DNA of 6,873 nucleotides from Thiobacillus sp. GTDB lineage: Bacteria; Pseudomonadota; Gammaproteobacteria; Burkholderiales; Thiobacillaceae. Below are positions 1,132 to 6,645 of this stretch, one piece after another. Under the pieces are notes generated by a model. That model was not told the origin of the DNA. It did not search any database and saw nothing but the letters and a program-made list of their open reading frames with translations. A program made the position numbers and the translations under genes. Where the stretch lies: assembly GCA_011391285.1 (NCBI GenBank), contig JAABQU010000019.1:1-6873 (forward strand), read 5' to 3'. Each line of letters starts with the position of its first letter. The stretch's first letter is position 1.

Positions 1132-1542
1132 TCAGTTGGTTTTTAGTGGCAACAAATCGGCCAGGGTATAGCGATCCAGACTGGCCAGAAAGGCGTGGCC
1201 TGCATCCGCGAGTATGGGCATGAGCGCACAACGCGGCAGAAAGCGGCAGGTGGACTCACCCGGTTTGAAGCATTCGGCCAGCTCGAACCCGGATTCCATG
1301 TCGCGTACCACTTTGCCGATCCCGATTTGATCGGGCTGTCTGGCCAGTCGAAGGCCGCCTCCCTTGCCGCGTACCGTCTCGATATAGCCCTTGAGGCCTA
1401 GCTGGTGCACCACGCGGGTGAGATGGTGCCGGGAAATGCCATGCTCTTCGGCAATTGCCCCCACGGTTGCGATCTGTCCTGGGTGGGATCCCAGGTGAAT
1501 CAACACTCTGAGCGAATAATCGGTGAAGCTGGTGAGTTGCAC
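1132..1542 (-). CDS. nsrR: NsrR, Rrf2-family nitric oxide-sensing transcriptional repressor
   Basis: This 136-residue protein begins MQLTSFTDYSLR, the typical opening of NsrR, from a GTG start (1540-1542) with a weak AGG about 8 bases upstream. The N-terminal winged helix has the recognition segment ISRHHLTRVVHQL (36-48) and the wing VRGKGGGLRL (57-66). Cys91, Cys99 and Cys105 form a CX7CX5C pattern in the cluster loop, and Asp8 matches the acidic residue reported as a cluster ligand in characterised NsrR. Established family role: a dimer with an Fe-S cluster represses NO-response genes until NO nitrosylates the cluster. The gene is divergent from the DUF2249 operon and shares a short promoter region containing an NsrR-type site, which supports the assignment. 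IscR is less likely given the CX7CX5C spacing, the NsrR-like N terminus and the operator. It may be co-transcribed with the downstream feoB-like gene. Confidence 0.93.
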   Translation of the reverse strand: MQLTSFTDYSLRVLIHLGSHPGQIATVGAIAEEHGISRHHLTRVVHQLGLKGYIETVRGKGGGLRLARQPDQIGIGKVVRDMESGFELAECFKPGESTCRFLPRCALMPILADAGHAFLASLDRYTLADLLPLKTN

Positions 1543-1579: not shown

Positions 1580-1604
1580 TTGACTCGCTTCCTGTGATTA
1601 TAAT
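1580..1604 (+). promoter_or_regulatory. Probable promoter of the DUF2249 operon
   Basis: A consensus TATAAT lies at 1599-1604 and a TTGACT at 1580-1585, but the spacer is only 13 bases, too short for a standard sigma-70 pair. Either the -10 is used with a poor -35, or TAATAT (1601-1606) is used with a 15-base spacer. No convincing FNR/DNR-type TTGAT-N4-ATCAA site is seen. The position immediately before the NsrR-type site fits repression by occlusion of RNA polymerase. Confidence 0.5.
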
Positions 1605-1624
1605 ATGTATTCCATTTACATCTT
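1602..1624. promoter_or_regulatory. NsrR operator (11-1-11 inverted repeat)
   Basis: The left half AATATGTATTC (1602-1612) and the right half ATTTACATCTT (1614-1624) flank a single central base. Against the known enterobacterial NsrR consensus AAGATGYATTT-N-AAATRCATCTT each half matches at 9 of 11 positions, 18 of 22 overall. It overlaps the end of the TATAAT box and lies just before the AAGGA ribosome binding site (1626-1630) of the DUF2249 gene, an ideal place for repression. With nsrR divergently encoded next door this is a strong prediction. Confidence 0.83.
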
Positions 1625-1638
1625 TAAGGACGAAAGCC

Positions 1639-1893
1639 ATGAGTGCCCATCTGCATCTTCGCCAGGACAGTGTCTACCCCTTCGACGCACGCGGTATTGC
1701 CAAGCGTTTTCGCCATGCGGCCATTTTCGGCGCACTCGACGCGCTGAATTCGGGCGAGCGCATGCGCTTCGTCAATGATCACGACCCGCTGCCGCTGCTC
1801 GATCAGTTGCGCAACCGCTATGGCGAAGCCGTTGAGATCCAGTACCTGCAGCGTGATCCCGGTCAGATCGTGATCGACTTCATCCGCAACTGA
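1639..1893 (+). CDS. DUF2249 domain protein, first gene of the NsrR-controlled operon
   Basis: This 84-residue soluble protein starts at an ATG with AAGGA 8 bases upstream. An in-frame ATG at 1594 was rejected because it lies before the promoter -10 box. It has the DUF2249 pattern: a DARG segment (16-19), a helix with IFGALDALNSGE (29-40), the turn NDHDPLPLL (46-54), and a C-terminal strand PGQIVIDF (74-81). The family resembles the small TusA/SirA-like alpha-beta fold and is often found near nitrite or NO reductase and haemerythrin genes, but no biochemical role is established. The fold comparison and gene-neighbourhood statement come from family knowledge, not this sequence. The stop is 7 bases from the next start, so translational coupling is likely. 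The NsrR site directly upstream predicts induction by NO. Confidence 0.85.
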   Translation: MSAHLHLRQDSVYPFDARGIAKRFRHAAIFGALDALNSGERMRFVNDHDPLPLLDQLRNRYGEAVEIQYLQRDPGQIVIDFIRN

Positions 1894-1900
1894 GCGCCCC

Positions 1901-3031
1901 ATGGCGTTGCCGGCGCTGGTGCTGCTTGCCCTGGTCGCGTTTGCCGCGGCCTTGCTATGGTCGCCCCACGCAGGACGCGCCGCCGCCCTGCATCTGCTTC
2001 TGGCGGTGGGTGCCATGCCGCTGATCTTCGGCGCCATGAGTCACTTCATTCCGGTGCTCACCCGCACCCGCAACGCCACTGCCGGACTGGTCGCGATCCC
2101 CGTCCTGGCGCTGGCGGGCGGCGCGCTGGTGGTAAGCGCACTGAGTCTGCCCGAGCTGTTCTGGGGGCGTCATGCCGGCGCTGTTCTGGCGGTATCTGCA
2201 GCGAGTGCGCTGCTCGTCTGGAGCCGTCGCCGGCGCGCCGGCATGCTGGGCCGGCCGCATCCCTGCCTGGCCTGGTACGAGGTGGCACTGGCCTGCCTCG
2301 TGTTGGCCCTGCTCGCCATTCTCGCCAGCGCGATCTGGCCACAACAGACGATCGCGCTGCATCGCCTCCATCTCCATCTCAACACGCTCGGCTTTGTCGG
2401 GCTGACCGCCATCAGCACGCTGTCGGTGCTGCTCCCGACCGTTGCTGACAGGCCGGATCGCGAGGTTGGATCGCGGCTGCAACGCGATCTGCCCTGGGCG
2501 GTTGCCGGCACGCTGCTGGTTGCCTTCGGCTCGGCCTGGTTCAGCCCGCTCGCCTGGATCGGCGGTGCGGTGTGGGCGGTTCCGCTGATGCGGCTGGGGT
2601 CGAGTTGGCTGCGGCTTTATCGCGCCGAGATCCTCGCGCTGCACGGCGCTGCGCCGCTGCTCGCTGCTGCGCTGGCCGGACTCGCCATCAGCATGATTTT
2701 TGGTGCGGCGGCGCCGATCGCTCGGCCAACCGAACCGGCGTTGGCCTTTGTCGTCGGGTTCATGCTGCCGCTGGTATCCGGTGCGGCCACCCAGTTGCTG
2801 CCGGTATGGCTGCGCCCGGGTGTCCAAAGCAGCTGGCACGCACGCTTGCGCGACCGCCTTGGCCGCTATGGCGGCGTCCGTGCTGTCCTGTTCTGCCTCG
2901 GCGGCATCGTCGCCGGAATGGGCCGCGATTGGGGGCTGCTGCTCGGCGCGGCCACGCTGATCTGGTTTCTGCTCCAGGCCAGCGTGGCCTTGCTGCAGTC
3001 CAAAACATTTCAAGAAAGGGATCCGTCATGA
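1901..3031 (+). CDS. Polytopic membrane protein, heme-copper-oxidase/NnrS-like, with HxxHxHxN motif
   Basis: This 376-residue protein is very hydrophobic, with roughly ten predicted membrane helices. The first spans about 4-20; others fall near 28-54, 62-81, 91-107, 126-146, 157-181, 198-217, 247-268, 279-301 and 327-365. Notable features are GAMSHFIPVLTRT (44-56), with His31 and His48 in or beside a helix, and LHRLHLHLNTLGFVGLT (153-169), giving His154, His157, His159 and Asn161 in one helix. Similar H-x-H-x-N segments occur in membrane domains resembling heme-copper oxidase subunit I and in NnrS-like proteins linked to NO metabolism, so heme or copper binding is plausible but inferred. It is not a clear NnrS orthologue. 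There is no strong Shine-Dalgarno; the start lies 7 bases after the DUF2249 stop and probably depends on coupling. The stop overlaps the next start in an ATGA, so the operon is tight. Confidence 0.8.
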   Translation: MALPALVLLALVAFAAALLWSPHAGRAAALHLLLAVGAMPLIFGAMSHFIPVLTRTRNATAGLVAIPVLALAGGALVVSALSLPELFWGRHAGAVLAVSAASALLVWSRRRRAGMLGRPHPCLAWYEVALACLVLALLAILASAIWPQQTIALHRLHLHLNTLGFVGLTAISTLSVLLPTVADRPDREVGSRLQRDLPWAVAGTLLVAFGSAWFSPLAWIGGAVWAVPLMRLGSSWLRLYRAEILALHGAAPLLAAALAGLAISMIFGAAAPIARPTEPALAFVVGFMLPLVSGAATQLLPVWLRPGVQSSWHARLRDRLGRYGGVRAVLFCLGGIVAGMGRDWGLLLGAATLIWFLLQASVALLQSKTFQERDPS

Positions 3032-3636
3032 CTTATCCGGAATTTTTTGCCGCCGTGCCGCGCCTCACGCTGCACGACCCCCTGGCCGAACTCCTCGGCG
3101 CCGCCGAAAACGGCCTGATCGAATACGGCTACACCGATGCGGTCAAGCTGGCCGGACATTCGTGTCCCACCGTCGCGGGCGCCTACCTCATGACCCTCAG
3201 GGCGCTTACGAAGCTCTATCCGGATGGACACCCTGAACGCGGCGGCATTCGGGTCGAACTCAAGGCGGCGCAGGTGGACGGCACCGCGGGCGTCACCGGC
3301 GCCGTGGCCGGCCTGCTCACGGGCGCCGCAGGCGAGGGGGGATTCAAGGGACTGGCGGGGCGCTTCAGCCGCCGTGATCTGCTGGAGTTTGCAGCCGGAA
3401 TCGACGCCGAGCTCTGTTTCACCCGGATGGACTCGGGTGCGCGCGCGACGGCTACGTACCATCCGGAAGTCGTGCCGCCTTCGCCCGAACTGCAGGAATT
3501 GATGCCGAAGCTGCTTGCCGGTGCTGCCAGCGCGGCGGATCAAACGGAATTCGGTCGCCTCTGGCAGATGCGGGTCAAACGCATCCTGATCGACCATTTC
3601 GATGATCCGGAACTGGTGCGATGCCAGCCGGCATGA
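3028..3636 (+). CDS. FmdE-domain protein, third gene of the NsrR-controlled operon
   Basis: This 202-residue soluble protein starts at an ATG overlapping the previous stop (ATGA), with AAAGGG (3015-3020) 7 bases upstream. The same frame is open back to 2572, but that upstream part is only a shadow of the membrane gene. It carries an FmdE-like signature, LAGHSCPTVAGAYLM (41-55), with candidate metal ligands His44 and Cys46, then a Gly-rich stretch VDGTAGVTGAVAGLLTGAAG (83-102) and GGFKGLAGRFSRRDLLEF (104-121). A second part (about 128-202) contains Cys130 and Cys199. FmdE is named after a gene of the methanogen formylmethanofuran dehydrogenase operon; bacterial relatives are mostly of unknown function. 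There is no sign of methanogenesis or C1 genes nearby, so that annotation should not be transferred. Co-transcription with the DUF2249 and membrane genes suggests a role in the NO response, possibly redox or metal related. Confidence 0.82.
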   Translation: MTYPEFFAAVPRLTLHDPLAELLGAAENGLIEYGYTDAVKLAGHSCPTVAGAYLMTLRALTKLYPDGHPERGGIRVELKAAQVDGTAGVTGAVAGLLTGAAGEGGFKGLAGRFSRRDLLEFAAGIDAELCFTRMDSGARATATYHPEVVPPSPELQELMPKLLAGAASAADQTEFGRLWQMRVKRILIDHFDDPELVRCQPA

Positions 3637-6273: not shown

Positions 6274-6645
6274 TCAGCACTCGACCATGTCGTTGCGGGT
6301 CGATTCGATGAATGCCACCACATCGGCGCGCTCGGCCGGCGGCAAGGCGAACTTGTCCAGCGTGGCGTGCAGATGGCTCATGAACGCATCCCAGTCGGCG
6401 GCGCTGATGCGCATGCCCTTGTGGGATACCACCATGTCACGGCCGGTGTAGTACATGGGTCCGCCGGCGGCGTTGCAGATGAAATCCACCAGCAACTGAT
6501 ACTCGCGCTTGATGCCGTCCTCGCCGCGATGCAGCCAGAAGCGTTCCAGAAGCGGGTCGGCCTGCAAACGCGGCAGCAGGTCGGCGCACACGGCGGCGAT
6601 GGCGTCGTAGCCACCGAGGCGTTGGTAGAGGGTAGGGGTGGTCAT
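6274..6645 (-). CDS. Truncated haemoglobin, group I-like
   Basis: This 123-residue protein has the 2-on-2 globin layout: LYQRLGGYDAIAAV (6-19), LQADPLLERFW (27-37) at the B-C-D turn, the glycine motif AAGGPMYYTGRDM (59-71), and SHKGMRIS (74-81) with His75 as the proximal heme ligand. Length fits the short group I type. Group I members bind O2 and NO and often act as NO dioxygenases or redox sensors; that role is inferred here. Aligned by eye with mycobacterial GlbN, the distal Tyr B10 falls on Leu24, so the distal pocket may differ from the classical one. The ATG (6643-6645) has a strong AAAGGAGA site (6651-6658) 5 bases upstream. It reads toward tonB but is about 400 bases away, so an operon with it is unlikely. 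Confidence 0.88.
   Translation of the reverse strand: MTTPTLYQRLGGYDAIAAVCADLLPRLQADPLLERFWLHRGEDGIKREYQLLVDFICNAAGGPMYYTGRDMVVSHKGMRISAADWDAFMSHLHATLDKFALPPAERADVVAFIESTRNDMVEC

Follow-up and report, generated by a model that had tools for sequence, protein, structure and literature searches.

Contig JAABQU010000019.1 of Thiobacillus sp. provided a window of 6,873 bases, the whole stretch analysed here, which we read for open reading frames (ORFs), Pfam and NCBIfam families and operator matches. In this window, a DUF2249 gene, a gene for a membrane protein that we call MEM and an FmdE-domain gene follow a candidate NsrR-type operator and lie opposite a gene for an NsrR-like repressor (Table 1). 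The initial annotation of this DNA had described such a tightly coupled trio behind an NsrR-type operator and a divergent nsrR, and all three elements were borne out: on direct reading DUF2249 and MEM are separated by a 7-base gap and MEM and FmdE overlap by 4 bases (ATGA), and the operator and repressor are supported by the scores given below. The operon most likely helps denitrifying bacteria to cope with nitric oxide (NO), because it is probably induced by NO, MEM appears to be a relative of the oxidases, and related copies lie beside NO reductase genes.

Table 1. Features of the operon and its regulator in the window (TM, transmembrane helix)
Feature	Position	Strand	Basis and remarks
Rrf2-family NsrR-like repressor gene	1132..1542	minus	Divergent from the trio; Pfam and NCBIfam profiles, cysteines
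TATAAT, putative -10-like element	1599..1604	plus	Adjoins the operator; read in the sequence, role inferred
Candidate NsrR-type operator TATGTATTCCATTTACATC	1604..1622	plus	Consensus score
DUF2249 protein (PF10006), 84 aa	1639..1893 (including stop)	plus	Pfam
MEM, 376-aa, 12-helix membrane protein	1901..3031	plus	Predicted structure, fold matches, alignment
Codon of MEM H31, invariant, TM2	1991..1993	plus	20 residues upstream of a conserved Pro; alignment
Codons of MEM H157-L-H159, invariant His, TM6	2369..2377	plus	22 and 20 residues ahead of a conserved Pro
FmdE-domain protein, 202 aa	3028..3636	plus	ATG at 3028; Pfam; invariant GHSCP motif

A genome scan for MEM gave 44 loci; it used patterns taken from the window MEM and is hence biased to close kin. 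A less biased sample, an even draw of 250 genomes from one order, contained MEM in 29, while a class-wide draw contained it in 6 of 274, one of these being a weak partial match. Among the 120 closest relatives listed, the named ones were mostly Thiobacillus.

The accessible part of Rodionov et al. (2005, PMC1274295) gives the NsrR consensus as gATGyAT-N5-ATrCATc. The candidate operator agrees with it at 12 of 14 fixed positions, and a score of at least 12/14 was reached in 5 of 2,000 shuffles of the 200 upstream bases. Scanning the window with up to three mismatches returned three matches, where 0.56 were expected and 4 of 200 shuffles gave three or more; the operator is the best, with two mismatches, and the others, at 3567 and 6372 with three each, fall inside genes. 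The same block, judged by eye, precedes DUF2249 in the 21 loci with a MEM identity of 64% or more, scoring 12/14 in 12 loci, 11/14 in five (in one of which, L019, the best-scoring match sits away from the block) and 10/14 in four. At the TATAAT position the related loci carry TATAATATG and L008 carries TATAATATA. A strict pattern with one mismatch, applied to 10 of those genomes, gave 11 matches over eight genomes and none in the other two, with none in the backward control. Comparison of coordinates by hand placed 10 of these 11 in the gap 5' of DUF2249 and one (G002:C15) elsewhere; in G444 and G528 a second strict match lies toward the nsrR side of the gap.

The regulator matches Pfam Rrf2 (E=4.8e-34), and its best NCBIfam match is NsrR PRK11014 (E=1e-35). 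Its cysteines 91, 99 and 105 form an Fe-S-type C-x7-C-x5-C arrangement that recurs in all 14 linked regulator copies, the split L003 copy being read from a 70-residue piece. An NsrR-like gene is found beside MEM in 14 of the 44 scan loci, and the operator block lacks a divergent nsrR in 7 of the 21 loci (L008, L010, L014, L015, L016, L040 and L044). Rrf2-family relatives of the window regulator occurred in 12 of 12 genomes searched; in the seven genomes with a block but no divergent nsrR the best was 50-54% identical, and in three regions from those seven it was divergent from a NorB-like gene twice (L190 and L192) and beside transporter-like genes, judged by eye, once (L191). Seven of 38 upstream regions (L030, L034-L038 and L043, mostly Rhodocyclaceae) contain, 89 to 93 bases upstream, a TGATN4ATCA box, which we take to be of the FNR/DNR type, compared with 14 of 3,700 shuffles. 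Because the block occurs without a divergent nsrR and TGATN4ATCA boxes occur elsewhere, the regulator seems to differ between loci, with a link to low oxygen or NO retained. With NO as the signal, as family knowledge indicates, the window operon is probably switched on by NO.

The link to NO and denitrification was examined through co-occurrence in the 250 sampled genomes. Cytochrome cd1, counted as a strong domain match (E<1e-99) with NirF/NirN-type relatives included, was present in 66 genomes: 26 of the 29 with MEM compared to 40 of the 221 without it (Fisher p 2e-14), the exceptions being G307, G406 and G422. NorB-like proteins, counted with a cNOR query at E<1e-60 and some at ∼40% identity, were present in 59: again 26 of 29 compared to 33 of 221 (Fisher p 6e-16), with G307, G409 and G447 lacking NorB at this cut-off. 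NnrS was found in all eight MEM genomes tested. NirK passed its family cut-off in none of the 29 MEM genomes, 24 of which gave weak matches under it, and was rejected as an alternative partner. Together with the gene neighborhoods, these counts uphold the proposed link to NO and denitrification; of the co-occurrences that had been suggested for checking, those of MEM with NorB, cd1 and DUF2249 were found, whereas FmdE was inconstant and NirK failed.

The neighborhoods of the 29 sampled genomes include several short contigs and at least five genomes that are also scan loci, and were searched with reference sets that came from the scan loci and genomes. At distances of up to 10 kb from MEM they contained DUF2249 (17 genomes), a second oxidase-like protein (12), a second DUF2249 (11), hemerythrin (11), NorB, a nitronate monooxygenase (NMO)-family flavoprotein and FmdE (7 each), NnrS and an NsrR-like gene (5 each), and cd1 (2). 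Among the scan loci, 29 of 44 have an NMO-family gene no more than 10 kb from MEM. The island at L194 combines DUF2249, MEM, NMO and a second oxidase-like pair with hemerythrin; it also has norB, norQ and genes for a norC-like cytochrome c, a VWA protein and an NsrR-like regulator. The second oxidase-like membrane protein (∼426 aa, no Pfam match) forms a set there with its own DUF2249 and hemerythrin (7419-9651), which is seen in the NO islands of 11 of the 29 sampled genomes. A parallel layout is found at L193 (6013-8239), where a gene with a PF01883 Fe-S assembly domain, a DUF2249 gene and one for a membrane protein of 354 aa are divergent from an NsrR-like gene. In L030, L034-L038 and L043 the DUF2249-MEM pair sits amid genes for cytochrome b-like proteins and unusual heme-copper oxidases, with cd1 and NirDLGH-like genes also near it in L030, L034, L035 and L043.

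MEM matched no Pfam family at E≤1, PF05940 (NnrS) included. Its predicted model, with a predicted local distance difference test (pLDDT) score of 93.6, has the 12 TMs of the heme-copper oxidase fold, and in the six best rows of the comparison with the PDB it aligned to the oxidase fold over 351-363 residues at 3.0-3.4 Å. MEM thus resembles CcoN and NorB in helix number and fold, and it resembles TM10 of CcoN and CoxI in having an HxH with a Pro 20 residues on. However, heme-copper oxidases and NO reductases carry this HxH in TM10, whereas MEM carries it in TM6, and the MEM operon, unlike theirs, has no cytochrome c subunit. Structure prediction supports MEM as a heme-copper oxidase fold without the usual catalytic-site ligands.

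We placed the candidate ligands in an alignment of 37 MEM sequences, counting helix positions back from the conserved Pro. The initial annotation had singled out an HxxHxHxN motif, which corresponds to residues 154-161; H157, H159 and N161 are invariant in all 37 sequences, but H154 is found in only four. H31 sits at Pro-20 of TM2, H157 at Pro-22 and H159 at Pro-20 of TM6, each in 37 of 37. The TM10 HxH that binds the high- and low-spin hemes occurs in none of the 37, and the TM7 His pair for CuB/FeB is missing from the window MEM and from 36 of 37, L022 alone having HH where the helix starts. Twelve sequences (L020-L029, L031 and L033), not including that of the window, have a single His at TM10 Pro-20, and because of this extra third His the subgroup may bind heme differently.

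The oxidases of the same genomes (6 CoxI and 12 CcoN) have the TM10 HxH 22 and 20 residues ahead of a conserved Pro, the CoxI TM2 His at Pro-22 and the CcoN TM6 His at Pro-20; CcoN TM2 has no such Pro, and the spacings in C23 oxidases are 21 and 19. The oxidase low-spin heme is held by the His residues at TM10 Pro-20 and TM2 Pro-22. Given the threefold pseudo-symmetry of the oxidase fold, His residues at TM2 Pro-20 and TM6 Pro-22 would coordinate a heme between units 1 and 2, in the third pore, which is empty of heme in NO reductases and respiratory oxidases. In the second oxidase-like family, His residues occupy TM2 Pro-20 and TM6 Pro-22 (17 of 17 by column count; a narrow TM6 His pattern found 0 of 17), and a profile-profile comparison with MEM was no more than suggestive (E 6e-4, probability 28%). 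The same pattern search matched NnrS at TM2 in 6 and at TM10 in 4 of 11 sequences. MEM may carry heme, and we suggest tentatively, with more doubt than belief, that MEM and the second oxidase-like family place it in this third pseudo-symmetric pore. The fold would then be reused in different ways: NnrS would perhaps retain the low-spin site, and in the families paired with DUF2249 the vacant site would serve as a center that binds or relays NO.

The window DUF2249 protein (PF10006, E=2e-27, 95.3 bits, cut-off 29.5) is probably a small cytoplasmic protein. It has a counterpart beside MEM in 37 of the 44 scan loci, 36 at a stricter score; the second DUF2249 also reaches the TusA cut-off, which that of the window does not. 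The FmdE protein (PF02663, E=1.1e-5, 26.0 bits, cut-off 22.9) has a poor predicted model (pLDDT 57), and neither protein matched a PDB sequence at E≤1. The GHSCP motif, invariant in 14 of 14 aligned FmdE sequences, may point to a metal site. The constant partnership of FmdE implied by the trio did not hold: it adjoins MEM in 16 of 44 scan loci, one of them with a 61-residue piece, and in 4 of 29 sampled genomes, lying within 10 kb in three more. In 30 genomes chosen mostly for having no FmdE beside MEM, an FmdE-family match (E≤0.001) was obtained in 12, one being the positive control L004 and two covering just part of the profile. Nine such regions were fetched and an FmdE gene was called in five, 52-62% identical to that of the window; neighbors of these genes include PLD, MscS and phosphoglycerate mutase-like genes, none with an evident NO role. 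FmdE thus adjoins MEM in some lineages only, and it would be a lineage-specific, possibly metal-binding accessory.

Elsewhere in the window, a bacterial-type globin gene (6274-6645, minus strand; PF01152, E=2.2e-12) encodes a possible NO-handling protein; the window scan, whose only matches are at 1604, 3567 and 6372, gave no NsrR-type site upstream of this gene. A 353-aa open-ended ORF (2-1060, minus) carries a FeoB_N-like GTPase domain (E=3.9e-22) and stays under the NCBIfam FeoB cut-offs. Between 3716 and 5925 lie a plus-strand ORF of 74 aa that probably encodes a membrane helix and then, on the minus strand, ExbD (Pfam) with ExbB-like and TonB-like genes judged by eye. The 74-aa ORF, the FeoB-like ORF and the globin were excluded from the unit, with no phmmer matches across the 44 loci; ExbB, ExbD and TonB were excluded on orientation alone, no search for them having been made in those loci.

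The kind of system is already known, because both the COG4309/NsrR/norB link of 2005 and the DUF2249-oxidase superfamily link of 2014 precede it; calling it undescribed, as the initial annotation did, was an overstatement. We take COG4309 to be the DUF2249 family. In the accessible part of Rodionov et al., COG4309 is a gene of unknown function that has predicted NsrR sites and belongs to the NsrR and NnrR regulons, often with norB, and possibly relevant to NO reductase function; the sites are of the kind predicted in our window, and that text mentions no MEM or FmdE partner (PMC1274295). A 2024 paper (PMC11218638), in its accessible part, associates DUF2249 with the oxidase superfamily and refers for this to Pei et al. 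2014, a work also cited in the accessible part of an eLife paper of 2015 (PMC4602095). In the accessible account of Thermus, DrpA and DrpB likewise pair a DUF2249 protein with a partner associated with the membrane, next to an operon for nitrate respiration, but DrpA is periplasmic and DrpB consists of DUF1858 and two DUF2249 domains with no oxidase fold (PMC6282519). Our open-access literature search found no paper joining DUF2249 with NnrS or with NsrR, and no precedent for the operon with FmdE, the MEM fold, the ligand placement or the counts. The HCOH proteins of Pei et al. 2014 reportedly have 12 helices in three repeat units, few conserved His and a DUF2249 context, and MEM fits this description, with a predicted oxidase fold, a reduced His set and three repeat units.

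NnrS is related to the oxidases and protects iron pools from NO. Its family is NO regulated, as is predicted for MEM, and differs in its conserved His, near columns 52, 293 and 315 of 387 as opposed to TM2 and TM6. We favor, at roughly even odds (about 0.5), an NnrS-like NO-tolerance role for MEM in an NsrR-repressed, NO-induced operon of denitrifying betaproteobacteria. NO would damage the Fe-S cluster of the divergent repressor and thereby free the operator adjoining the -10-like element. MEM, predicted to keep the oxidase/NO reductase fold without the TM10 HxH and TM7 His pair, would bind a b-type heme near its periplasmic face through H31 and H157, with H159 spare, and during denitrification it would bind or relay NO or shield pools of heme and iron; its usual partner would be DUF2249, with FmdE an accessory. 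Several results weigh against this proposal. The Foldseek E-values of MEM are no better than 0.003, and its comparisons with NorB, CcoN, CoxI, NnrS and C23 oxidase profiles are not significant (E 0.02-0.87). The Pro-spacing rule does not hold for the 5 NorB and 11 NnrS sequences under the same criterion, the regulator scores 122.9 bits, under the NsrR equivalog cut-off of 182, and DUF2249 was not found beside MEM in 7 of 44 scan loci and 12 of 29 sampled genomes, some on short contigs. The co-occurrence counts ignore kinship and were read by hand from tables.

The same co-occurrence with NorB and cd1 would also suit an assembly or maturation aid, in which MEM-DUF2249 helps heme/FeB insertion or stabilization of cNOR or cytochrome cd1. 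In 4 of the 29 sampled genomes norB is divergent from the MEM operon at a distance below 0.7 kb, and the suggested relevance of COG4309 to NO reductase fits as well; yet 33 of the 59 NorB-bearing genomes have no MEM, and no norB was seen in the available flanks in the window and its nearest relatives, which leaves this the strongest of the alternatives but an unlikely one. We give distinctly less credit to MEM as a redox heme protein that passes electrons from quinol to a soluble acceptor (hemerythrin or flavoprotein) for repair of nitrosylated metal centers. The bis-His heme predicted in MEM, the nearby hemerythrin and NMO-family genes counted above and the Fe-S assembly domain gene at L193 agree with it, but these neighbors are unproven as partners. 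A role of MEM itself as a minimal enzyme, either an NO reductase, which would make the operon the NO-reducing module that had been considered for it, or an NO dioxygenase, is improbable: an NO-reducing enzyme of known type is unlikely because MEM is without the usual catalytic ligands, and the operon has no c-type cytochrome gene.

An NnrS-like role in NO tolerance remains our preferred reading, and unnamed genes of sulfur-oxidizing denitrifiers can now be given a predicted fold and ligands as well as a genomic setting. DUF2249 is tied to oxidase-fold membrane proteins as recurring gene pairs in NO islands, and residues of MEM are named as candidates for mutation. If the third-pore heme is true, the respiratory oxidase fold would be reusable for NO handling.
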